From positions 1 through 38,072 of IMG/VR virus record IMGVR_UViG_3300032285_004560: 38,072 nucleotides of DNA. One strand, 5' to 3'. The stretch comes from a virus. Position 1 is the first letter of the stretch. Each line of letters starts with the position of its first letter. This document shows, piece by piece, positions 1,859 to 27,183 of the stretch. The translations under genes were made by a program, and so were the position numbers. The notes below the pieces were generated by a model. That model was not told the DNA's origin and did not search any database. It was given only the letters and a program-made list of their open reading frames with translations.

Positions 1859-2205
1859 GATCGATCTAACCAGGAATCTAACCAGGTAAAAGCCAGGCTA
1901 GATCTAACGAAGATCTAACCGATAAGCCGCTAGATCAGCTGCTAGATCAGCTGCCTAACCAGGCTAGATCTAACCAACTAAGCTGCAAGATCTAACGAAT
2001 AAGCCGCTTAGATCGCTGCAAGATCCAGGCTAAAGCTGCTAGATCAGCCGCAAGATCTAACGAAGATCTAGGCGATCAGCTGCAAGATCCAGGCTAGATC
2101 TAAACTAAAGCTGCCAACTTACAACGAATGAGTTGCAAGATCAGCCGCTGTAAGCTGCTAGATCTAACGAAGATCCAGGTTAGATCTAACCGGGCTAGCC
2201 AGGGT
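1859..2205. repeat. intergenic array of GATC, AGATCT and AGCTGC words
   Basis: About 350 bp made of shuffled short words: AGATCTAAC, CCAGGCTAGATC, GCTGCAAGATC, GATCAGCTGC. By eye it holds about 20 GATC tetramers where one or two are expected, many inside the palindromes AGATCT or CAGCTG. It has no protein-like frame and lies between two minus-strand terminators (2212-2231 and 1817-1843). Shorter versions of the same vocabulary occur in other intergenic gaps of the left module. Possible roles are a noncoding RNA, a protein-binding array or an origin; the sequence does not decide between them. Confidence 0.75.
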
Positions 2206-9504: not shown

Positions 9505-9534
9505 AGTGTAAGCGTAAAAAGCTCGCCGTGTCAA
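9505..9534 (-). promoter_or_regulatory. consensus promoter giving a near-leaderless ClgR-like transcript
   Basis: TTGACA (9534-9529), an 18-nt spacer, TACACT (9510-9505). Six bases separate the -10 box from the ATG at 9498, and an in-frame ATG at 9504 directly abuts it. Confidence 0.75.
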
Positions 9535-9552
9535 ATAGCACGCCGTAAAGAA

Positions 9553-9584
9553 AAACACCGACAACTTTCGTCGCCGGTGCTTTC
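9553..9584 (-). terminator. terminator after the Api92-like gene
   Basis: CACCG/CGGTG outer pairing with an inner CGAC/GTCG-type pairing; TTTTTC on the minus strand. Confidence 0.65.
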
Positions 9585-9594
9585 CGTAAAGCTG

Positions 9595-10437
9595 CTATGC
9601 CACTGGGAATAATCGCTTGTTTGTATCAAGGTCTTTCACGAAGATAGAACTTTCGTCCGCTTGTGTAATTCCCTCGCCCAAATCAAGAACCACGCCAGCC
9701 AGCCTCTGACCGGCAATTTCCCACGCCTCTTCTGCGTTCGCCGCTTTGACATACATAGTCTGCTCAATAACTACCGCATAAGTTTCATTTGGGCGTGGGC
9801 AATCTTCAAACCAATACTCTTGGTCATCATCTCCATCACCGCAATTACAGTTCTCTTCACGCCCGAGTGCCACATAGTCTGCGTGGCTTTGCGGAATGTC
9901 CCACTCCTTGGTCAAAGAGAACTCGCCATTCATACCAGTAGCCTCGATACCCCAGCCTTGCTCTTCTTCGGCATAGAACTGAAACTCCAGCGTTGGGTGT
10001 TGCTCCACCATTGCGATAAACGCCCCCTCGGCTACTGACCAAGGTGTGTTGAAGTTGTAATGAAGTTGTTGCTCTTTGTCTTGAATGTTGTCTGCCATAG
10101 ACACATCACTTGCGTCCCACTTACAACCCCACTCACGAACATTCCAGTCATACCAGCCATCACCTGAGAACTTTAGGTCGTGAACCATTTTCTGTTCTGC
10201 TGTCCAGCCCTCGTAGCCCTCCGGCTTAGTCCCACTTGAACTTGCAAAATAAGCGTGCTTATTATCTGGCTCTTTGAAGTTCCAGAACGACAACTCCTGA
10301 GTGTCTCCATCTGAATACTCCAGCACGCCATCATTTGAAATACCATTTGGTGCTAAGCGAGCTGCCTTATCACGAAACGCAATCAAGTCCTCACGCTCGC
10401 CAGTGATAATCACATTGTTATAAACCCAGTTTGGCAT
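9595..10437 (-). CDS. Api92-like protein with ferredoxin-like fold
   Basis: 280 aa from MPNWVYNNVIITG. The hallmark blocks are MPNWVYNN at the start, WYDWNVREWGCKWDA (about residue 105), NFNTPWSVAEG, and FQFYAEEEQGWG. These identify the Api92-like family found on phages and plasmids, whose molecular activity is not established. After residue 190 a CNCGDGDDD acidic loop and a separate C-terminal domain (YAVVIEQTMYVKAANAEEAWEIAGQRL) resemble the 15242-15397 protein in its strand-then-EEA-helix pattern. The ATG shares one base with the upstream stop (TAATG). Confidence 0.88.
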   Translation of the reverse strand: MPNWVYNNVIITGEREDLIAFRDKAARLAPNGISNDGVLEYSDGDTQELSFWNFKEPDNKHAYFASSSGTKPEGYEGWTAEQKMVHDLKFSGDGWYDWNVREWGCKWDASDVSMADNIQDKEQQLHYNFNTPWSVAEGAFIAMVEQHPTLEFQFYAEEEQGWGIEATGMNGEFSLTKEWDIPQSHADYVALGREENCNCGDGDDDQEYWFEDCPRPNETYAVVIEQTMYVKAANAEEAWEIAGQRLAGVVLDLGEGITQADESSIFVKDLDTNKRLFPVA

Positions 10438-10685
10438 TATGACCACACCCCTTTCATTTCATCCATTTGATTTTCAGCGATAAGTTTTTCGATAACCTCG
10501 CCAGCAAACATCTTTGTAAGAACTATGCGATTTAGTAATTCCTCATCTCCTAAGTCCCGAGCGATACGCTCTACGATTCCCAAAGCCTGATACATAGTTG
10601 GGTCTGCGTATCCCTCTTGACAATAAGATTCCACCAAAGCACCCAAGACAGCAATCGCTACCCGAGCCATTTCCCGTTCTTCCAT
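10437..10685 (-). CDS. small helical protein of unknown function
   Basis: 82 aa with GAAAGGGG upstream. All-helical prediction (AVLGALVESYCQEGYADPTMYQALGIVERIARDLGDEELLNRIVLTKMF). First gene of a two-gene operon with the Api92-like protein. A TTGATT/TACGCT promoter candidate lies near 10715-10745. Confidence 0.75.
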   Translation of the reverse strand: MEEREMARVAIAVLGALVESYCQEGYADPTMYQALGIVERIARDLGDEELLNRIVLTKMFAGEVIEKLIAENQMDEMKGVWS

Positions 10686-10932
10686 TTTTATCCCCTTTCA
10701 TTGGATACCCCAAGCGTAGCATAATCCTCTGACAAATCAAGCAACTTTCGACAAAAATTTGGATCCGTTTTTCAAAGCTGCGGGCATGAGTCTAGTGATC
10801 GTAAAAAGCTTTTCGCGCAACCGGGTAATTGCCAGGCTACCTAACTTCCCACGATCACGTGAACCGTCTTCATTCGAAGTCTGCCCGTAGGGGAAACTAC
10901 TAACGAACTTGTGATCCGTTTACGGATAAGCG

Positions 10933-10966
10933 AAACCCCTCTGACTTGGGGGAAGTCAAAGGGGTC
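10933..10966 (-). terminator. second terminator downstream of the VWA gene
   Basis: ACCCCT-TGACTT/AAGTCA-AGGGGT stem with single mismatch and GGGGG loop; TTTCGC on the minus strand. Confidence 0.7.
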
Positions 10967-10993
10967 TCTATCCGTTGAGAGAGCGATTTTATT

Positions 10994-11018
10994 TTTAGAA
11001 AGGGGATTGCTCAATCCC
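10994..11018 (-). terminator. first terminator downstream of the VWA gene
   Basis: GGGATTG/CAATCCC 7-bp stem, with CCTTTCTAAAAA following on the minus strand. Confidence 0.55.
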
Positions 11019-11061
11019 AACGGAGTTCTTTACAGCACGCCGTCTTATGCGCTCGCCGTCA

Positions 11062-12840
11062 TTAGGCACTCACTTTCGCAAGTGCCTCTGACGCAGACCG
11101 TCCAATCTCTAAGGCGATTTGTTCTACATCAAGTCCGTCAAGGTGAACTCCGCTTGCCGTTGCTTTCATAATCTCTTTCGCACCGTGAGACATACACGCC
11201 TTTGGGGTAATGAACAGAACAGCCACGCCGTTTTGCTCGCACGCCCTCATTACATTCTTTGCGTGTTCCGTTTCGTTTCCGGTGTAGTTTCCGTCCGACA
11301 CGATTACCAAGATACGCACGCCGTTTCCGTATGAAAGATTGAGCGAACCGTCCAACGCCATGAACGCCTTGTGAAACATCTCCGTTCCGTCCGGTGCGGA
11401 ATAGACAGAAACCTTGTCCAACTTCTGACCGACTTTGAGAGTTGGGAAAACATCAGAACCGTAATAGACCATAGCGGTCTTTGCCTGAATACGGCGACCA
11501 GCCTCTGACATCACCCAAGCCGTAGTCGCCATGCTTTCCATAGCCGAACCCATAGAACCACTAATGTCCACCATGATTCCCATGCTTAGGGTTGGGTCGT
11601 CTGTGTGTTTGCGAGTTGTCTTACGCCATGCTGGGGCAAGTTCACGAACGCCCTTTGATTCCAATGCCTTGTTCTGAATTGCCACACGAGTTTTCAGACG
11701 ACCAACTGGCTCGTGAGATTTCACGACAGTTTCAGAACGCTCACGATACTTTGCCTTTTCCAACATCTGACCAATCTTGACAGCAGACGCACGCTCGTTT
11801 GAATTTGGATTGCGTTGTTCCATGAGAGACGAACGAGACGCAGAACCCAAAGAGCCATTTGACTTTGACATCACTTCGTCAGATTCCTTTTTCGCCTCGT
11901 TCTTTTTCTTGGTCGCACTTTGTTTTTCAGAAACTTCTTTTTTCCAATCCTCGCTCATTTGTTGGTCAGCCAAATCCATAGCGACTGAAACGCTAGTGCC
12001 ACTTGCGTCCTCGCCAAGTGCCTCAATCAAATCTTTCACGAACTCTGGGAGTGAACCAGCACCACCATTTTTACCCTCTGGGTCTTTGGTGTCCAAAATC
12101 TCTACCCACTTGCGAGCGATTTCTAATCCAGCCAATGTCGCACCATTACGAAGTTGTTGGAACTCACACCACAACGCACGAAGTTCGTCAAAAAGTTCCT
12201 CGCCCAAAATCTCCAACGCCTTGTCGTAAGTTGTCGCAACATCTGACAACTTCACAACGCCAGCGTCCACACGAGCGAGAGCAAGTCCAGCCAAGTGAGC
12301 CATGACACGAACTTCACTAATCTTGGTCAAGCGTTCCTCATCAAGTTCACCTAACGCAAGACCCAAAGCAGACGCACGCAAGAACAACTGATTCTGTGGC
12401 ATTTCGATTACGCCATAACGCTCAATGCGAGATTCCTCTAAAAGGAAAAATGCCTCTACAACAGCATTGTCTTTTTCAGACGCAAGTAAATCTTTATCCC
12501 ACTTATCTGAATAGCGAGCGTGAAGTGCCTCGTGATAAATCACGCCAACAGGTTCTGCCACTTCGTATTGGTTCTCACGCTTACGCAAGTCGCCAATCAT
12601 TTGTGGAGTTGTTGCTTTACCAAAAGCACCCTCTAGGTTGATTTCAATTTCAGCAGTATCGCCAATGAAACACGCAATAGCCTGACCCATTCCTGCGTCA
12701 GTTCCTGCGTAGACAGCCAAGTCAGAACGACCTGACCATGCGTTAGCAAGTTCGCCAATCTGCGAACAAGTTGGTAGCCACTCGCTAGGTGTCGCACTCT
12801 TGCGACTTGCTAGACGAGATTCTGAAACATAGTGAGACAT
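11062..12840 (-). CDS. CobT-like VWA protein with N-terminal HExxH domain
   Basis: 592 aa. Residues 90-180 contain YHEALH (His103, Glu104, His107), a zinc-metallopeptidase signature followed by a Glu-rich helix (EAFFLLEESRIERYG), as in DUF2201/VWA-like peptidase domains. Residues 265-350 are charged and low-complexity (KKKNEAKKESDEVMSKSNGS). A von Willebrand A domain starts near residue 405, with MIDAS motif DISGSMGS (Asp415), a later Thr (DGTEMF) and VSDGNYTG. Annotators often call these CobT in phages because they pair with a CobS-like AAA+ ATPase, as here (13041-14063). Cobalamin synthesis is unlikely, since no cobalt-chelatase partners are present. An ATPase-driven remodelling complex is the better guess. 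It has its own TTGCGC/TACAAT promoter. Confidence 0.88.
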   Translation of the reverse strand: MSHYVSESRLASRKSATPSEWLPTCSQIGELANAWSGRSDLAVYAGTDAGMGQAIACFIGDTAEIEINLEGAFGKATTPQMIGDLRKRENQYEVAEPVGVIYHEALHARYSDKWDKDLLASEKDNAVVEAFFLLEESRIERYGVIEMPQNQLFLRASALGLALGELDEERLTKISEVRVMAHLAGLALARVDAGVVKLSDVATTYDKALEILGEELFDELRALWCEFQQLRNGATLAGLEIARKWVEILDTKDPEGKNGGAGSLPEFVKDLIEALGEDASGTSVSVAMDLADQQMSEDWKKEVSEKQSATKKKNEAKKESDEVMSKSNGSLGSASRSSLMEQRNPNSNERASAVKIGQMLEKAKYRERSETVVKSHEPVGRLKTRVAIQNKALESKGVRELAPAWRKTTRKHTDDPTLSMGIMVDISGSMGSAMESMATTAWVMSEAGRRIQAKTAMVYYGSDVFPTLKVGQKLDKVSVYSAPDGTEMFHKAFMALDGSLNLSYGNGVRILVIVSDGNYTGNETEHAKNVMRACEQNGVAVLFITPKACMSHGAKEIMKATASGVHLDGLDVEQIALEIGRSASEALAKVSA

Positions 12841-12869
12841 TTGTTAGCCCTTTCTAAAAGCGTAAGACG

Positions 12870-12899
12870 ATTGTAGCACCTAATCACAAAAAGGCGCAA
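12870..12899 (-). promoter_or_regulatory. sigma70-like promoter for the VWA gene
   Basis: TTGCGC (12899-12894), an 18-nt spacer, TACAAT (12875-12870) on the minus strand. Confidence 0.75.
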
Positions 12900-12985
12900 G
12901 TCCATAAATGGATCAGTTTTTCGTGTCTAGCTGCAGACCTCTAGTGATCGTGAGAAAAGCTTTCGCACCTGGGTCAAGGCAAAAG

Positions 12986-13014
12986 AAAAAGGCACGAGAC
13001 CGAAGTCTCGCACC
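12986..13014 (-). terminator. terminator after the MoxR/CobS-like gene
   Basis: CGAGAC/GTCTCG with GGC/GCC-like flanks and CTTTTTCTTTTG on the minus strand. AGCTGC and GATC words follow. It separates the VWA gene into its own transcription unit. Confidence 0.8.
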
Positions 13015-13040
13015 TTTCCTTTTTTTAGTAGGACTAACCA

Positions 13041-14063
13041 CTAAATCTTTGCCGGACGACACTCCTCACCGAAAACACGAGTGAAAACATCTGCCACAAC
13101 CGGACGGTCAATTTCTGGAGAACTTGCGAGCAAGTTTGCGATTGCGAACTTAGTTCCAAAGATTTCAACCAAATCCCTAAACGCCAAAAGTTCACGCATT
13201 TGTGGAGACCACATTGTTTCACCATTGGCTTGTTTCTTTGCCAAGTTCTGTGCGACTGAAACAGCAGTAGCAGGAACGCCCAACTTCTTTGCCAAGTTCC
13301 AATCAGTAGTCATTTCGACCTGAACTGTGAAACGAGATAGCAACGCCTCTGAAAGACGAACTCCCGGTGCGTTTGGGTTAGTCGCACCAATCACGAAAAA
13401 TCCCTCTTTCGCTTTCACAATTCCACGCTCGGGGTTTTGTGTGATTGAGATTTCTTTGCGTCCGTCCATGAGACCATAAACAGCCGAAAGAACTTTCGGG
13501 TCAATCAAACCAATTTCGTCAATGAGCAAAACTTTTCCTTGCTCGGCAGATTTCACCAATGCGCCGTCCACCCATTCGAACGCACCACTTGGGGTTTGAA
13601 CATAACCACCAATGAAGTCCGAAAGTTCGGTGTCGCCAGAACCTAGAACTGTGTAAAGGTCATTTGGAAAAGCACCCTCTACCAAAGCAGTTTTTCCAGT
13701 TCCGGGTGCGCCATAAAGCAGAACATACTGATTCGCCTCACGAGCCTTACGCAGAACTTCAATGTCTGTGTGTTCTCCCCATGAGCGAGAGTAGTAGTCC
13801 TGACCATTTGGGCGAGCGTATTTTTCCACGCCCTCTAGTGCCGAAACATTTACCACTTTGTTTGCCTTTACTTTTGGAATAGCAGTTCCAACTTTAGCAC
13901 GCACTTTTGCCTTAGCACTTTCCGGCATTAGCGAAAGCAGACCAGCAGGAACGCTAGTTGGGTCAGCGTGCTGGACAGCAACTCCATAAACGAGTGAAGT
14001 CAGGTCTGTGAACAAATCGTCAATCGAAAGTTCGTCCAATGTTTTTTCTGTGTAGTTTGTCAT
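13041..14063 (-). CDS. MoxR/CobS-type AAA+ ATPase
   Basis: 340 aa. The AAA+ core spans residues 95-300: Walker A GAPGTGKT (118-125), Walker B VLLIDE (178-183), sensor-1 in GATNPN (Asn229), and Arg244 in LLSRF as the probable arginine finger. A Val/Lys-rich linker (residues 50-75) precedes it. MoxR-family ATPases typically remodel complexes together with a VWA partner, and one is encoded next (11062-12840). It follows 14092-14589 by 28 bp in the same operon. The name CobS is common for phage versions, but a role in cobalamin synthesis is not supported by context. Confidence 0.93.
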   Translation of the reverse strand: MTNYTEKTLDELSIDDLFTDLTSLVYGVAVQHADPTSVPAGLLSLMPESAKAKVRAKVGTAIPKVKANKVVNVSALEGVEKYARPNGQDYYSRSWGEHTDIEVLRKAREANQYVLLYGAPGTGKTALVEGAFPNDLYTVLGSGDTELSDFIGGYVQTPSGAFEWVDGALVKSAEQGKVLLIDEIGLIDPKVLSAVYGLMDGRKEISITQNPERGIVKAKEGFFVIGATNPNAPGVRLSEALLSRFTVQVEMTTDWNLAKKLGVPATAVSVAQNLAKKQANGETMWSPQMRELLAFRDLVEIFGTKFAIANLLASSPEIDRPVVADVFTRVFGEECRPAKI

Positions 14064-15102: not shown

Positions 15103-15163
15103 CCAACGAACCATGCACGCCGCTTCATGAAAAGCTTCCCTACGGCAGCTTCTTACGGGTAGC

Positions 15164-15222
15164 AGAAAACCCTCCGTTAGAAGTTAGGAATCGAATCGCA
15201 TCCCGGTTCTTCTAACGAAGGG
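15164..15222 (-). terminator. terminator after the 15242-15558 genes
   Basis: CCCT-CGTTAGAAG/CTTCTAACG-AGGG stem of 13 pairs with one mismatch and a loop of about 25 nt. GGGTTTTCTGC follows on the minus strand. CGTTAGAAGT is a recurring word (also near 16604 and 19539). Confidence 0.65.
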
Positions 15223-15241
15223 CTCGCCGTTGTTTGAAAGT

Positions 15242-15397
15242 TTACTCTTTTTTCGCAGGCCACTGACGCTCAACGAATGCAGACCAATCACCGTCGGGCA
15301 TGTCTTCGTGAACCTCGATACCCTTCTCGATTGCTTCTTCCTCGCTGGCCGCTTCTACCCAGTAGGTAGCGGTGTACTCTACTTGCCACGATGCCAT
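15242..15397 (-). CDS. 51-residue protein, strand plus EEA helix
   Basis: MASWQVEYTATYWVEAASEEEAIEKG, then an acidic end closing WPAKKE. A beta strand followed by an A-SEEEAIEKG helix is the layout of many tiny phage proteins, and the C-terminal part of the Api92-like protein (9595-10437) has a similar plan. It starts 2 nt after the preceding stop, with GGTGGAG as ribosome site. Function unknown. Confidence 0.75.
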   Translation of the reverse strand: MASWQVEYTATYWVEAASEEEAIEKGIEVHEDMPDGDWSAFVERQWPAKKE

Positions 15398-15399
15398 GG

Positions 15400-15558
15400 T
15401 TACTCCACCTCGACCAATTCAGTAAGCAGGCCGTCCGCCTGGTCATCGGTCAGGCCGCATTCCTCCTGAGCGTTAGAAACTGCAGAAGAGTAGCCGTCGT
15501 TAAATCCCCACTGGTATGCGCGTTTGATTGCTGGGTCCGTTAAATCCAAATCGTACAT
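15400..15558 (-). CDS. 52-residue acidic protein of unknown function
   Basis: MYDLDLTDPAIKRAYQWGFNDG, continuing helical and acidic to ELVEVE. AAAGGA lies 8 nt before the ATG. It is followed directly by 15242-15397 in a two-gene operon with the terminator at 15164-15222. The G-F-N-D-G-Y pattern resembles short phage proteins of unknown role. Confidence 0.7.
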   Translation of the reverse strand: MYDLDLTDPAIKRAYQWGFNDGYSSAVSNAQEECGLTDDQADGLLTELVEVE

Positions 15559-15676
15559 TTGGAATCCTTTCTATAGATAACTTAAGGATAGCAGCTTAGC
15601 GGGTTTTGTCAAGTGACACGCCGTATAAAGATAGGCGCATCTAATCATTAATTTCGTAAGAAGTTAGGATGGAACC

Positions 15677-16282
15677 ATGTTGCTTCTTATAACTTACCCG
15701 CGCTCTGGTGCACATTTTTTTCGAGAGAACTTCACAGCATCACAGGGAGGCGAAGACGCCGGCTCGTTCTTCAGTAGCGGCATGAGACTCTCGACTCCAA
15801 ACCCTAACATGCCGGTGCCCGGGCCTATCTCTAAGTTCCATCATGTTCACATGCCCGTGTTCTATACGGACCGGAAGAAAGTAACAATTGTCCGTAACCC
15901 CCGGGATTCGATAGCCTCTTGGGCAGCTATGTCTTGGAAAAAGCATGGTAACGGTCTAACACTGCGTGAATTTCTTAAAAGAGAAATAAATAGATATGTG
16001 GTGATGTACCGGTTTCTTTTATCGGAAGTTGATTTAATCATCAAATACGAGAATCTTCTGGAAGACCCTAAGGGCGCTTGCCGCTTTGTGGCGGAGCAGC
16101 TTGAATTGGAGTTTAAAGATTATACGTATGTCAGCAAACTACAGGACGAGCCGGAGGACGCTTACTATGTTTCCTCTAAGAACCTTGATGACTACCAGGC
16201 CGCTAAAGCTGAGCTGGAAACAATGAATCTGTGGGAGGCTAACCGATTGTACAACCTAGCTGCGAGTCGAGCTAACTTTTAA
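15677..16282 (+). CDS. sulfotransferase-family protein
   Basis: 201 aa, plus strand among minus-strand genes. Residues 7-15 (YPRSGAHFF) form the 5'-phosphosulfate loop, and VRNPRDSIASW (72-82) is the 3'-phosphate motif of PAPS-dependent sulfotransferases. FHHVHMP (54-60) may supply the catalytic His. YENLLEDP (about 124) is also typical of the family. It would transfer sulfate from PAPS to a hydroxyl or amine acceptor; the acceptor is unknown. The short length suits the compact phage versions. It converges on the CHAP gene with a 4-bp overlap. GGATGGAACC precedes the ATG. Confidence 0.88.
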   Translation: MLLLITYPRSGAHFFRENFTASQGGEDAGSFFSSGMRLSTPNPNMPVPGPISKFHHVHMPVFYTDRKKVTIVRNPRDSIASWAAMSWKKHGNGLTLREFLKREINRYVVMYRFLLSEVDLIIKYENLLEDPKGACRFVAEQLELEFKDYTYVSKLQDEPEDAYYVSSKNLDDYQAAKAELETMNLWEANRLYNLAASRANF

Positions 16283-17118
16283 CCAAGCTCCAAGGTAAAC
16301 AGGCCGGTTTCCGACGAAAGCCTCTTCAATGAGTTAACATCTGGCAGGCCGCTTGCATCAGATCCGATGTAACCAACCGTTCGTTGGAAGTTGGCGAAGG
16401 CGGCTGCTGTAGCTGCATCCCACTTTCCACGGTCGCAATTTCCAAGGTCCGTTACTTGTGAAAGCGCTAGCTGAATAAGTTCGATGTGTTTGTTACGGGT
16501 ACCGGTGCGGAGCATCTTCAAACGAACTTCTTCATTCAAGCTCGCCGCTTCAGCGATCTGAGCTAGTTCTAGTTTTCCAGGAGCTTGCCGCATTAACTTC
16601 TTATAAAGCTTCGTTAGAAGTTTAATGATCCGCTTAAGACCTGGACTCTGGAATTCCTCAGGCCTACAGAACAGAGCAACATCCGTCATATAACGAATGT
16701 TCTGATGCACGCCGTCTTGCTGTTGATAAGCTCCGGGACCGGTTGAGTTTCCCTCAATGGTTAAGAATCGACCGTTTGTTTTAAGTTCGCGGACGTCGGT
16801 AACAATCCCGCAATGTGGCATCGAGAAAGCGCTCGCCGTATGCCCGACATTTGATGAGAAGTTAAAGATGGCAATGTCACCAGGCCGTGGTACCTGAGAA
16901 ACGTTACCCCGTCGAATGAATTCAGCGAGCGCCGCTGGAGTATAAACGAAGCTTGGAAGATGGAGGCCGCTCTCCCTGGCCACAACATCAACGAAAGCTC
17001 CGGCCCATGGTTGGGAATCATATCCAACGCGCTCGCCGAAACCTGTACGTCCTAGCAAACCAGCTTGATAGCCTAAGTACTTGCGTGCCGTCGCTAGGAA
17101 AATTTCTAAAGTCTTCAT
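16279..17118 (-). CDS. CHAP-domain protein lacking the expected catalytic Cys
   Basis: 279 aa. The CHAP-like domain covers residues 1-130. DSQPWAGAFVDVV aligns with the usual PWCAAFV nucleophile block but has Ala39 instead of Cys. PRPGDIAIF, HCGIVTDV (His102) and TIEGNST (Glu122, Asn124) supply the remaining conserved parts. A linker follows, and residues 185-279 (WDAATAAAFANFQRTVGYIGSD) read as a degenerate peptidoglycan-binding-like module. The family consists of amidase/endopeptidase lysins. Loss of the Cys suggests a binding or structural role, unless Cys103, next to His102, compensates. It lies in the small-terminase gene cluster. Confidence 0.8.
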   Translation of the reverse strand: MKTLEIFLATARKYLGYQAGLLGRTGFGERVGYDSQPWAGAFVDVVARESGLHLPSFVYTPAALAEFIRRGNVSQVPRPGDIAIFNFSSNVGHTASAFSMPHCGIVTDVRELKTNGRFLTIEGNSTGPGAYQQQDGVHQNIRYMTDVALFCRPEEFQSPGLKRIIKLLTKLYKKLMRQAPGKLELAQIAEAASLNEEVRLKMLRTGTRNKHIELIQLALSQVTDLGNCDRGKWDAATAAAFANFQRTVGYIGSDASGLPDVNSLKRLSSETGLFTLELG

Positions 17119-17154
17119 GTCATTTTGATCTTAGCACACATGTCGAGTGATTTG

Positions 17155-17835
17155 TCAATCTACGAATGCATGTTGCCAAGAGGGGTCCGTTCCTAGGGGC
17201 AGCTCCTCTTGCCATAAGATCCCAGCGAAGTATTTAAATCCTGAAGTTATGGTGTTAACTTGGTGAAAAAATGGCGGGTTGGATGGGAACACGATGATAT
17301 CTCCGGCTATCGGTTTGTACCCAAGGATCTCCGTTCCTTCTTCTTTTGTCCCTATTCGGAAGTTGAGCTCGCCGCCTTCGTAGTCATCATTTAAATAAAC
17401 ATTACAAGTGACGGACCATCTAGTCTTTCGGTTTGGATCTCCGGCATCCGTATGCCATCCCATCTCGACTCCGGGGTTATATCTATTAACCGACATTCCA
17501 CCAAAGAACGGTTTTGTTAGTTCCACATTGAGCTCTGAGAGATAGCTCGCCGTTGCAACTTCAAACGAACGTCGAAGCTCTTTCATAGCTGCAGCTCCAA
17601 GATCATCGGATTTAACTGGCCGGCCTGGACTATGAACGAATGATTGGTTTAAAGATATGGCACGGCCACGTACAGTTTTTCCCACCCAAGGAGCCCACCC
17701 GTTCCAGCAGTAGTGCTCGTCATCAGTTGGGGTAGCTTCGAGTTGATTGATGATTTCTTGAGGGTTCTTAGTGATACCGCGGTAGATGTGAATCGCGGGG
17801 TGTAACTTAACAACAGACACCTCGCCGTTACTCAT
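17155..17835 (-). CDS. prolyl-4-hydroxylase-like 2OG-Fe(II) oxygenase
   Basis: 226 aa. A double-stranded beta-helix is marked by HTDAGD (iron ligands His128 and Asp130), the VTCNVYLNDDYEGGELNF strand pair, PIAGDIIVFP, and FFHQV (His191, third ligand) followed by Lys201 in GFKYF, which may bind the 2OG carboxylate. This matches the P4H superfamily common in aquatic phages. The substrate (protein Pro, or a small molecule) is unknown. Its start overlaps the stop of the 17828-18403 gene by 8 nt. Confidence 0.9.
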   Translation of the reverse strand: MSNGEVSVVKLHPAIHIYRGITKNPQEIINQLEATPTDDEHYCWNGWAPWVGKTVRGRAISLNQSFVHSPGRPVKSDDLGAAAMKELRRSFEVATASYLSELNVELTKPFFGGMSVNRYNPGVEMGWHTDAGDPNRKTRWSVTCNVYLNDDYEGGELNFRIGTKEEGTEILGYKPIAGDIIVFPSNPPFFHQVNTITSGFKYFAGILWQEELPLGTDPSWQHAFVD

Positions 17836-18403
17836 TGGAAAAGAGCTCCTCGGGAAGGATGTCGATTATCAAATGATCGCGATCCGTTGTTCCATTGTTG
17901 ACCAGGCCGTGAGACTTCCCGTTATTAATCTCCCAGCACTCGCCGACTTTCATGTTCTTGGCCTCGCCGGCAATTGTGAACAAAACATCTGGGTTCGTCT
18001 TAAGTGCAATGTGGTTACGACGGACGCTTAGCAAATACTCGCCGCCATCAATGTGATCATAAATGTCAGCTCCAGCCGGCAGCCGCACAATCAAAACACG
18101 AGCAATCCGTCCTTCGTGGAAAGTTGCTAGCTCTTGGGCGATCGGATCAATGAGCGCTTTCAACTTCAAATCAACCGGATCGTACAAAGATCCGCGGAAC
18201 CCTAGCTCCTTAAACTTCATACCGTCTCCACCTGGATAATCATAGATTCCGATGAAGGTTGTTTTTTGATGCGGAAGATTTAATTTTTGGCGTTCAAGGT
18301 TTACGTAGAAAAGATCTTCGTTGTTTGTTACGTACTCGGCGATCTCCGCTACATCGTAGTTCTTGATGAAGTTGAACTTAAAGTTTTCTTGAGGTCTAGA
18401 CAT
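17828..18403 (-). CDS. aspartyl/asparaginyl beta-hydroxylase-like oxygenase
   Basis: 191 aa. The motifs ARVLIVRLPAGADIYDHIDGG (His117, Asp119), RRNHIAL, GECWEINNGKSHGLVN (His165) and a following Arg are the cupin-like pattern of the Asp/Asn beta-hydroxylase family. It is therefore a second, distinct 2OG-Fe(II) enzyme type placed next to the prolyl-hydroxylase-like gene. The two genes overlap by 8 nt (ATGAGTAA), which implies coupled expression and perhaps successive or parallel hydroxylation of phage or host targets. That pairing is inference. Confidence 0.88.
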   Translation of the reverse strand: MSRPQENFKFNFIKNYDVAEIAEYVTNNEDLFYVNLERQKLNLPHQKTTFIGIYDYPGGDGMKFKELGFRGSLYDPVDLKLKALIDPIAQELATFHEGRIARVLIVRLPAGADIYDHIDGGEYLLSVRRNHIALKTNPDVLFTIAGEAKNMKVGECWEINNGKSHGLVNNGTTDRDHLIIDILPEELFSNE

Positions 18404-18406
18404 CCG

Positions 18407-18601
18407 TTAATCCTCCGTACTTAGATCCTGGCCGCCGTTAACGTAGTTAACAACTTTAACGTAGAGCTTCTCCGCTTCATTGGCGAGAGTTGTTAGTCGA
18501 ATGTGCTCGATCCGTGTACCCGCGTTTTCAATGTCCGCTTTAACGTTTTCGTACAAGTTGCTGGCCGCTTCTACTAGTTCATCTTTTTCTTGTTGATCCA
18601 T
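18407..18601 (-). CDS. small helical protein of unknown function
   Basis: 64 aa, two predicted helices with heptad-like spacing (VEAASNLYENVKADIEN and TTLANEAEKLYVKVVNYV). It sits 3 nt after the small-terminase-like gene and 3 nt before the AspH-like gene. Function unknown. Confidence 0.75.
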   Translation of the reverse strand: MDQQEKDELVEAASNLYENVKADIENAGTRIEHIRLTTLANEAEKLYVKVVNYVNGGQDLSTED

Positions 18602-18604
18602 GGG

Positions 18605-19531
18605 TTAGAGCTTATCCGTTTCTTCAGAAGTTGATTCTTGCTGGCCGTCCGTTACAACTTCCGCGTCGAGTATATCTCTATCCGCTTCTATGTGCACGCC
18701 GGCTTCGGCGAGTCTAGCTGCAGAGGAAATCGCACCTTGTGCTAGACGCTCCAACCGTTCTGCGATAACAGAAGCTGCAGGCCGTACATCCAAGTTGACC
18801 GAGGTATCTATTTCTATACCTCCGCGCACGCCGGCTCGGTCGAGGATCTCCGTTGCAGCTTTAAGCTTCACCGGTTCTGACTCCGCGTTCTCCATCAAAT
18901 CTTCAAGAAGATCAACCGCGTAAGGAGCTGCCTGGACCAACTTCGCACGAGCTCGTTCGATGTCATCCGACGGATTCTTCTTCGTTGATCGTAAGTGGAT
19001 GCGGCACAGGCCGTCATCTTTTGGACGCCCGCTGCTCCACAACAAACAACGAATACCGTCATCTTTGATCTGACGACAACGGTGAGGTTGAGCTAGAGGT
19101 TGACGCTTTGCGGAAGTTGGTCCACCTTCCTCTTGTTCTTTGAGGTAGAGGCGGGTGCTGTGGATAACCCACGGTGGTACCAGATAATCCGTTGCTTCTT
19201 CAGCTAAGAGATCCAGGCCGGTTATGTAGTTTGAATTGTTGTCCGTTGGAACTTCAAGTAGTGGACGCTTCTCCGCTAAGGATTGGAGGCGGCGTTCGAT
19301 TCGGGACTCTTTGGTTCGTGCATAGATGAGGCCCGTTACCTGACCGGTGGTTGAGTAGACAGGATCCCATGACATTCCTGCTCGCCGTAATATACCACGG
19401 TTTACAAAGTTATCTTCGCAGACGCCTTTATCGGTCTCTTCAATTCCGAGAGCGGATAGATCTGGGCGGAGGTCGATAGGCGCGTCAACTTGTGACTGGC
19501 CGTCTTCTACATCCGTGTCTTTTTCGAACAT
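18605..19531 (-). CDS. putative terminase small subunit
   Basis: 308 aa. Middle segment: HRCRQIKDDGIRCLLW...CRIH (about residues 150-180), a C-C-C-H zinc-type element. Then comes a helical domain, RARAKLVQAAPYAVDLLEDLMEN, and VKLKAATEILDRAGVRGGIEID (about 220-240). The phrase AA-x-x-ILDRAGV-x-GG with a preceding basic zinc-like segment is typical of actinophage small-terminase-like DNA-binding proteins. Such proteins choose the packaging site. The structured intergenic region just upstream (19532-19821) fits a cos/pac location, and the large subunit is not in the window. The N-terminal 140 residues are not recognised. Confidence 0.65.
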   Translation of the reverse strand: MFEKDTDVEDGQSQVDAPIDLRPDLSALGIEETDKGVCEDNFVNRGILRRAGMSWDPVYSTTGQVTGLIYARTKESRIERRLQSLAEKRPLLEVPTDNNSNYITGLDLLAEEATDYLVPPWVIHSTRLYLKEQEEGGPTSAKRQPLAQPHRCRQIKDDGIRCLLWSSGRPKDDGLCRIHLRSTKKNPSDDIERARAKLVQAAPYAVDLLEDLMENAESEPVKLKAATEILDRAGVRGGIEIDTSVNLDVRPAASVIAERLERLAQGAISSAARLAEAGVHIEADRDILDAEVVTDGQQESTSEETDKL

Positions 19532-19821
19532 AATCTCTCCGTTAGAAGTTGGTTTGTAGGATTCCTACAAAAGCTACCCTAAGTTGTACAACTTACAAGC
19601 CGTTGTTTGTAAGTGACGGTGACCTAGGATACCGGGGAGAGGGCTTGACCCTAAGCCACCGTCCTATTAATTTTACCCGACGGCAAATTATGTGAGTAGA
19701 TTGGAAAAGTTTTTTTGCGCGTGGAGAGGGTGACGAGTACCATTTTGCTCCAAAAACCCCCATTTTGCCCCCGCATAAACAAAAAGTAAGTATTTGTAAA
19801 TAGTCAATACCGCTGTATATT
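19532..19821. other. structured intergenic region, cos/pac or RNA candidate
   Basis: This is about 290 bp without a gene. It has a 15-bp near-palindrome TGTAGGATTCCTACA (19555-19569), the 14-bp palindrome AAGTTGTACAACTT (19581-19594), a CTTACAA/TTGTAAG hairpin (19592-19613), and GACGGTG/CACCGTC closing a domain at 19615-19663 with an inner GGCTT/AAGCC helix. Base composition changes here from motif-rich to AT-rich DNA. Position upstream of the terminase-like gene suggests a packaging site; a structured leader RNA is the alternative. Confidence 0.55.
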
Positions 19822-25302: not shown

Positions 25303-25356
25303 ATTCTTTCCTTCCTTCTCTCCCTAACCTAGCACACACCCGACAGGATGTCAAGC

Positions 25357-27183
25357 ATGCTTAAGTCAAAATCATTAAAACTATTCTCCGCCATTGGATT
25401 AGCCTTTCTACCGCTATTTTCAACATCTCCTGCATTTGCAGATACTCCGACAGAGCCAGTTATAGCAGTAGTTACAACTCCTGGTGGAGATGACTCATCC
25501 TATCAAATCCCACTGACAACTACCGTTACCTTTGATGGCGTCCAGTACAACTCTGTCTATGCAACCACTAACTCTGTAATTACATTTGGCCAGCCTGACG
25601 GCACTTACTGGACCTACCCCAACACTCCATCCATCTCGCTTTACAGCATGGACTGGGTTGTTTTTCCAAATAGAGGCGATGAGCACTTAATCATCTCTGC
25701 ATCTGATGGTGGATTCCAAGTAGATATTGCTGCAAGACCTTACGGTATGTGGAACTACGCAGGTGTCGATGCAACTAACATCAACATTGTTGCTGCAATC
25801 AATACTGATGGAACTGTATCAATCTCATACTCATTGACTGGTCCAACCTATGAAGGACAGACACGCACAGGCGTTCGTCTCACAGATGGCAGCATAGTGA
25901 CCCTTGAACAGTATGGAATCGTACATGTAGATACTCCTCCGGTTCTTGAACCTGAACCAGTAGCTCCTACTCCAACTCCAGAGCCAACTCCGACCCCAAC
26001 CCCAACCCCAACACCGACTCCGACCCCTACCCCAACCGTTGAACCTACTCCAACCCCTACTCCAACTCCGGAACCAACACCTACCCCTCAGCCAACTACA
26101 GAACCACCATTCATTCCGCAGGGTGCAGCTTTACTATCCGAGGGATCTAGTATTCAAGTCATAGCCCCAGCAGGTCAGAGGATTGTAAGCATCATGGCTT
26201 GGTACGGAGACCCTAATGATGGATCTCGAGGCGTCGAAGTTTCGTCACAACTAACTCAGTTAGCCAGCGGACAAACCTCCGTAACCATTGAATCATCAAA
26301 CATTTACGGAGATCCAGCTGGAGGAACCACTAAGGTTCTCATCTATCTAGTCAATTACGAACCGGTACCAGAACCAACGGTAGATCCAACTCCAGTGATT
26401 CCGCCGGTTATAGTTCCAGAACCTACCCCAATTCCAACTCCACAACCAGAGCCATCTCTACCTCCGACTCCAGAGCCACAGCCCGAACCAGGACCAGTTC
26501 CAGTGCCACCAATCGCACAACCTGAGCCCCCAGTAGTCACCCCTGAACCTCCAGTTGTAGAACCCGAACCTCCGGTAGTTGAACCAGAGCCACCAGTTGT
26601 AGAGCCACTTCCAGAGCCAGCCCCGGATCCAATCAAGGAAGACGTACCAGCTAAGGCTGAAGATTTGCCAGAAGTAATTAGCGCAGAACTTCTTTCGAAG
26701 ATTGATCTAACTGCAATTGTTGCAACTGACCTAAGCCCAGCTCAGGCAGACGCTCTAGTTGAAGCTGCAATGGAAACTTTCCAAACAGCCGAGAAGGGTT
26801 CAGCAGAATACGAGCAAGCTCTTGATGCTCTGATGGTTGCAGCTAAGCAAGATGACATTGTTGTTGACCCAGCAATTGCTGCTATCCCACTTCTTGGTAA
26901 TGCAGTTCAAGGTCTTACAGATGCTTTGAACTTCATGTCAAACGTTGGTGCTGACATGTCTCCTCAGACTCGTGAAGAGTCAGGAAAGATCGTTGTTTCA
27001 GCAGTTGTTGCAGGTCAAGTTGCTCAGATGGCAATGACCGCTTCGATGACTATCAACGTTGGAACTCCTCCAACTCCATCAGCTCCAACCCCATCTGCAC
27101 CAAAGGCTCCGTCTTCACCATCAGCCCCATCAGGTGGCGCAACCCGCAGTGAGCCAACATCAGCTCCACGAAAGAAGGATTAA
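25357..27183 (+). CDS. secreted Pro/Thr-rich repeat protein
   Basis: 608 aa; ATG at 25357 has AGGA 8 nt upstream, and the ATG at 25348 is less well placed. A signal peptide ends at SPAFA (about residue 28). There is a beta-rich domain (residues 30-185), then tandem PTPTP and EPTPTP units (about 200-245), a second beta segment (250-330), PEP and EPPVVEP repeats (335-420), a helical region (430-550) and a Ser/Pro-rich basic end. Similar architectures occur in phages from freshwater actinobacteria. It is probably exposed on the virion or deposited in the cell wall; no enzyme motif is seen. Confidence 0.8.
   Translation: MLKSKSLKLFSAIGLAFLPLFSTSPAFADTPTEPVIAVVTTPGGDDSSYQIPLTTTVTFDGVQYNSVYATTNSVITFGQPDGTYWTYPNTPSISLYSMDWVVFPNRGDEHLIISASDGGFQVDIAARPYGMWNYAGVDATNINIVAAINTDGTVSISYSLTGPTYEGQTRTGVRLTDGSIVTLEQYGIVHVDTPPVLEPEPVAPTPTPEPTPTPTPTPTPTPTPTPTVEPTPTPTPTPEPTPTPQPTTEPPFIPQGAALLSEGSSIQVIAPAGQRIVSIMAWYGDPNDGSRGVEVSSQLTQLASGQTSVTIESSNIYGDPAGGTTKVLIYLVNYEPVPEPTVDPTPVIPPVIVPEPTPIPTPQPEPSLPPTPEPQPEPGPVPVPPIAQPEPPVVTPEPPVVEPEPPVVEPEPPVVEPLPEPAPDPIKEDVPAKAEDLPEVISAELLSKIDLTAIVATDLSPAQADALVEAAMETFQTAEKGSAEYEQALDALMVAAKQDDIVVDPAIAAIPLLGNAVQGLTDALNFMSNVGADMSPQTREESGKIVVSAVVAGQVAQMAMTASMTINVGTPPTPSAPTPSAPKAPSSPSAPSGGATRSEPTSAPRKKD

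Follow-up and report, generated by a model that had tools for sequence, protein, structure and literature searches.

In a family of large actinobacterial phages, one genome end appears, over its first few kilobases, to be filled with short oriented words, and we propose, with a probability that we put at roughly 40%, that these words form a polar, KOPS-like array that would be recognised, and would give orientation, as packaging initiates at the genome end. The window, by which we mean the whole 38,072-nt stretch of viral DNA analysed here, carries one such zone at 15116..19502, where its plus strand holds 32 copies of CWSGCCG (CGGCSWG in sense orientation).

Word counts in the window

The first-pass annotation of this DNA had reported about 30 copies of CWSGCCG on the plus strand and about two on the minus strand where chance would give about one, and the count bears this out: between 15223 and 19503 there are 31 copies on the plus strand and 2 on the minus, against an average of 1.0 on each strand, and at most 7 and 6, in 2000 dinucleotide-preserving shuffles of the same interval. 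The zone is thus a real departure from chance. On the plus strand its first site lies at 15116 and its last at 19496, and, as had been claimed, the word is nearly absent from 19.6 to 38 kb (none on the plus strand, three on the minus). A weak enrichment noticed at 9.5-11.3 kb is also present, as a second cluster (9522..11323, plus strand) with six plus-strand copies from 9522 to 11317 and none on the minus; below 9 kb, seven sites lie on the minus strand and one on the plus. Copies in the main zone follow one another at a mean of 141 bp, irregularly (CV 0.81), so that there is no regular spacing, and no longer common motif was seen in the flanks of the 7-mer. The companion word TCCGTT, which had been noted as frequent, is likewise polar in the zone (13 versus 0).

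Because k-mer scans without codon control turn up numerous further local words, which in the window stem partly from a repetitive protein, we rely on codon-controlled results alone. Four genes of the zone are read from the minus strand: gene 1, the zone anchor, which codes for a small-terminase-like protein of 308 aa (18605..19531), a gene for an Asp/Asn beta-hydroxylase-like protein (17828..18403; PF05118), one for a 2OG-Fe(II) oxygenase (17155..17835; PF13640) and one for a CHAP-like endolysin (16279..17118). When the synonymous codons of the four minus-strand zone genes are permuted, which keeps proteins and codon usage, 1.31 +/- 1.10 copies are expected, whereas 23 are observed, a number that none of 2000 shuffles reaches. 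The words are common to unrelated genes and spacers, and in the CHAP-like gene they occur in all three codon phases (FGE, RPG, TAS, DGV, AAS, SGL, TGL), including the three examples, FGE, TAS and RPG, from which it had been argued that codon or protein preference is not the cause. We agree with that argument: such preference is ruled out by the codon shuffles, and also by gene 4 of phage Atuin and by site occupancy in small-terminase (TerS)-like genes, both described below.

The sulfotransferase gene (15677..16282, plus strand) lies on the opposite strand to its neighbours and is almost free of words, with one near its 3' end; a 579-bp gap in the array falls mostly inside it. This gene is possibly a recent insertion or acquisition. 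Between the two clusters lie an AAA ATPase gene (13041-14063, minus strand) and a CobT-like gene (11062-12840, minus strand), and the second cluster sits at and past the end of these genes; relatives also have a cluster at +8 to +10 kb. The AAA/CobT stretch (11062..14063) carries other local words, GAACTT and GGCGTG.

Conservation and turnover among relatives

Matches to gene 1 were found in 27 IMG/VR contigs of up to 154 kb (58-85% identity in the best segment) and in nine named-phage records. The word loading is conserved: among about 25 IMG/VR relatives compared, most, and nearly all of the closer ones, show it. With the loci aligned on gene 1, the sense-strand motif is better described as CGGCS[ACT]G than as CGGCSWG, the G variant showing no enrichment in the relatives' loci. 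In nearly all closer relatives CGGCS[ACT]G is present at 4-9 per kb over the first 3-7 kb after the start of gene 1 and all but absent from the preceding 10 kb, which anchors the zone at this gene; more distant contigs, L014 and L026 among them, show no clear word loading. Relatives that share the proteins are thus enriched as well, a result that, like the codon shuffles, fails to overturn the first-pass claim. Pooled over 13 close genomes, and including commonly inherited sites, CGGCCTG occurs 77 times forward and once in reverse in 44.7 kb of zone DNA, against none in either direction over 123 kb of DNA upstream of gene 1, and AACGGA (TCCGTT on the other strand) 93 times against one.

Individual sites are far less stable than the zone. 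In a codon alignment of 12 TerS-like genes the sites fall at 20 different positions and turnover is heavy, and the word is present at 62 of the 152 capable positions (41%), against 7.7 expected from codon shuffles. Selection appears to act on word density and not on fixed position.

In a codon-controlled genome scan the scan windows at gene 1 have the top rank in Microbacterium phage Big4, in our own window and in two relatives (G001 and G005); they rank second in a third, G002, and are not among the leading ones in G003. Across the freshwater relatives, almost every scan window with a high codon-controlled excess falls between about -1 and +16 kb relative to gene 1, and the words differ from one part of this region to another. 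The highest score, made by other words, belongs to the AAA/CobT region (+5 to +8 kb), and pooling genes that differ in codon usage may inflate the excess in these relatives.

Lineage-specific words in named phages

Named relatives share the layout of the zone, but the words themselves vary between phages, in a way that in general follows phylogeny. In Microbacterium phages the words are AACCGT and CAACCG, which crowd the first 2-3 kb of Big4, Zooman, A3Wally and Pumpernickel, more weakly that of Cece, and then vanish. In the first 2 kb of Big4 their forward/reverse counts are 14/1 and 15/0, respectively; over the whole Big4 genome AACCGT reaches 20/2 in the first 4 kb and clusters nowhere but where each of the two repeat copies begins. 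In Arthrobacter phage Atuin the first 6 kb of the repeat form a TGCSG zone, with ATGCGG at 20/0 and CTGCCG at 15/0.

Atuin also separates the orientation of the words from that of the genes, as its genes 3 and 4 oppose the other genes of the zone. Gene 4 is a DndB-family gene (PF14072, E 1e-13; L037 1600-3102, minus strand) inside the terminal repeat. Its sense strand contains 22 copies of CSGCA, the complement of TGCSG, where codon shuffles give 8.0 and none of 3000 reaches the observed count, while TGCSG itself is at expectation (2 versus 2.7); in the spacer beside the gene, the zone word occurs 15 times forward and twice in reverse. Since this minus-strand gene keeps the top-strand orientation of the words, orientation in this one relative is a property of the DNA molecule and not of gene sense.

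Probable position at a genome end

In Big4 the gene 1 homologue starts at nucleotide 63, which is 62 bp inside a direct terminal repeat of 17,669 bp: the first 17,669 bp of the genome recur without mismatch at its right end. The zone is therefore probably anchored at a physical genome end. Atuin has a perfect repeat of 17,312 bp that also starts at gene 1. The window is a 38-kb fragment within which a duplicate copy of the repeat is not present; by comparison with Big4 and Atuin, its terminal repeat would have been collapsed in assembly, and its zone probably starts at the left physical genome end. From Big4 we place the putative left end, or repeat start, of the window at 19532..19612.

Within the Microbacterium phages the words are sparse in the first 0.5 kb and peak at 1-2.5 kb inside the end, away from the cut, and in Big4 and Zooman a few words lie upstream of the genome end. 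No clear mirror image of the left-end words is seen where the repeat ends on the right. One word, CGGCGAG, does reverse in the Microbacterium phages (3 versus 44 in the rest of the repeat), but the same bias is found on sense strands outside the repeat, so the reversal may reflect coding bias and we dropped it as a mirror-image zone. In the right part of the Big4 repeat, at 15-17.7 kb, runs of GGGGGG occur 16 times forward and never in reverse, and are confined there.

Upstream of gene 1, a long hairpin is present in 22 freshwater-type loci, the window included (19612..19665, minus strand; relatives L003-L018, L026-L029 and L031), at 48-173 nt from the gene and at 374 nt in one relative. Its loop core, CCTCTCCCC (CTCTCCCC at 19634-19641 of the window), is invariant and its stems differ in sequence; all seven of seven stem pairs predicted on the alignment show compensatory changes. 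Rfam gave no match at the hairpin and reported only a tRNA. The hairpin may be a cut site or terminus, a packaging element, a regulatory RNA or a terminator.

Gene 1 as a probable small terminase

What can be said of the gene at which the zone is anchored? Profile comparison matches gene 1 to the small terminase of PDB 7joq (E 6e-4), and the TerS family phrog_2538 is matched by the homologues in Cece (E 6e-7) and Big4 (2e-5) and weakly by that of the window (0.003). The protein has TerS-like C-terminal helices and an invariant C-x9-C-x13-C-x2-H cluster (C152, C162, C176 and H179 in the window), which would suit a zinc-binding DNA contact. Its AlphaFold model is poor (pLDDT 53), and a Foldseek search with that model gave no match at E <= 0.001; nor did gene 1 match an FtsK-gamma domain. 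On these profile matches gene 1 is probably a small terminase, though the assignment is weak.

A proposed packaging-initiation array

There is a published precedent for the idea that a small terminase might read polar words. In Bacillus phages Sam46 and Sam112, TerS is fused to an FtsK-gamma domain, and the authors predicted that KOPS-like sites load and orient the terminase (PMC8190038). The idea is alike in that polar words would orient packaging; it differs in that it was a prediction without a found word, for pac phages and with another DNA-binding domain. Given this precedent and the TerS-like profile matches of gene 1, a polar packaging-initiation array is the best explanation of the zone. 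In outline, a direct terminal repeat would start just upstream of gene 1, and inward from that start selection would keep short oriented words closely packed in genes and spacers alike, single sites being gained and lost by synonymous change while density and orientation are maintained. The reader would be the terminase, most likely by way of the gene 1 protein and its Cys/His cluster, and the words would serve it as many weak, directional contacts by which the proper concatemer end is recognised; the orientation that the words share would set the direction in which the motor pulls, as KOPS orient FtsK.

The likeness to KOPS and SRS, which are read by FtsK and SpoIIIE, is that of short, oriented and over-represented words in coding and non-coding DNA, proposed to orient a ring translocase, and with a bias independent of gene sense (31/2 in the window; the antisense gene of Atuin). 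Unlike KOPS and SRS, which span a whole replichore with a defined reversal, the zone words keep to the first 3-7 kb, apart from a weaker second cluster; the words also differ, and gene 1 gave no match to the FtsK-gamma domain through which KOPS and SRS are read. The TerS recognition sites of P22, SPP1 and lambda (pac, cosB) resemble the zone in lying in or near terS at the start of packaging, perhaps as oriented repeats; a location at the genome end is seen directly in the perfect repeats of Big4 and Atuin and extended to the window by comparison.

Several observations speak against a packaging array. Known pac and cos recognition sites span tens to hundreds of base pairs, far shorter than 3-6 kb; the words of the Microbacterium phages peak inside the end, and +8 to +10 kb holds a second cluster; elsewhere in the terminal repeat other words are found, the aggregate excess of some being larger; and gene 1 is only weakly assigned to TerS, with a poor AlphaFold model. 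The first-pass annotation had left a list of functions open, and this list can be narrowed in part: the position of the zone at a repeat start beside a TerS-like gene favours packaging or another end function, and host Chi drops back for the Microbacterium phages.

How terminases of long-terminal-repeat phages find the end and the direction is poorly understood, and a dense, oriented, lineage-specific array would be a testable answer; it would allow genome ends and packaging direction to be predicted from sequence, even for metagenomic contigs in which the repeat has collapsed. The broader proposal, that long-terminal-repeat phages carry a multi-kilobase polar array in a lineage-specific code, read by the terminase for end and packaging direction, is a possibility that we regard as doubtful. 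We found no report of such a word array at phage ends in the literature searched, which took in few subscription papers.

Other explanations

A Chi-like function, which we consider unlikely, is the strongest competitor to the packaging array. A helicase-nuclease entering at the left end would meet the oriented words, stop degrading and load a recombinase, leading to end protection and repeat-to-repeat recombination. An array that is polar, dense and probabilistic and lies close behind a free end would fit, as would the scarcity of words in the first 0.5 kb and their peak at 1-2.5 kb, if the enzyme must travel first. Like Chi of RecBCD and AddAB, the words are polar and placed where they could act near DNA ends; unlike Chi, they are terminal only, vary between phages and are not enriched in the host sample that was tested. 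In 400 kb of a Microbacterium sp. chromosome AACCGT falls below expectation (54 versus 86.7), so this word is not the host Chi in Microbacterium, and host Chi is disfavoured for these phages on the strength of that one word. A phage-specific enzyme is conceivable because Big4 has RecA, a Cas4-type exonuclease and a helicase. The lack of a clear mirror image on the right side of the repeat and the few words found upstream of the genome end in Big4 and Zooman count against any Chi-like reading. If the reader were a nuclease, the words would be an end-protection code, equally unreported in the literature found.

A serious alternative to the packaging array, to which we give rather less weight than to Chi, is that terminal repeats have a general tendency to accumulate local short words through duplication, gene conversion or codon context, with no reader. 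The confinement of nearly all word-excess windows of the freshwater relatives to the region around and after gene 1, with words that differ by stretch, is what this would predict. It accounts poorly for a single word, strictly oriented, across unrelated genes and spacers, for the occupancy of 41% of capable TerS positions, and for an oriented zone conserved across genera.

Two further readings are very unlikely. The words might guide or pace the first DNA into the cell, as in the first-step transfer of T5; the terminal position inside a long direct repeat agrees with this, and the T5 record annotates the left repeat as the first to enter, but there is no known reader. DNA uptake sequences of Neisseria and Pasteurellaceae are also short words selected for density, with turnover of sites; they are genome-wide, whereas the zone words are terminal. 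To much the same small degree, the words might act in RNA, on a long rightward transcript from a terminal promoter (anti-termination, RNA binding or stability), given that the zone begins near the first gene and that its genes are co-directional in most relatives. An mRNA-sense signal is disfavoured by Atuin gene 4, where enrichment is antisense and the gene-sense reading is at expectation, and only functional antisense read-through could rescue it there.

A target of Type III or BREX-like modification was considered, polarity being the sole pointer to it. An artefact of base composition, codon usage or chance is hardly credible: the G+C content of the zone exceeds that of most flanking DNA by a few percent, but dinucleotide shuffles, which rule out composition and chance, codon-preserving shuffles and the relatives all reject it.

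Other local words

Beyond this phage family, weak hints that the proposed array may be general come from T5 and SPO1. The top codon-controlled windows fall inside the terminal repeats (T5 1.5-4.5 kb, SPO1 0-3 kb), and weak polar words are present in the first 5 kb of each, TCAGCG (10/2) and CGCCGC in the terminal repeat of T5 and ACTCAC (12/0) in SPO1. As these signals are weak and the words were picked post hoc, they are a lead only. In SPO1, AGCGG, the Chi sequence of B. subtilis, is about three times denser in the repeat (0-13 kb) than in the next 37 kb.

Other words of the window were also observed. Non-polar GAAGTT/AACTTC (12 and 9 copies) in the 15-19.5 kb zone, and GAACTT/AAGTTC in the adjoining 9-15 kb stretch, are above codon expectation and may constitute a second word system. 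At 25348-27183 (plus strand), a 611-aa protein with a repetitive stretch, and with a weak PARP-type repeat match below the cut-off, probably accounts for the local word ACTCCA. Finally, window positions 1868-2200 consist of dense, degenerate CTAGATCTAACGAAGATC / AAGCTGCAAGATC-like units, apparently non-coding and unlike the rest of the window.
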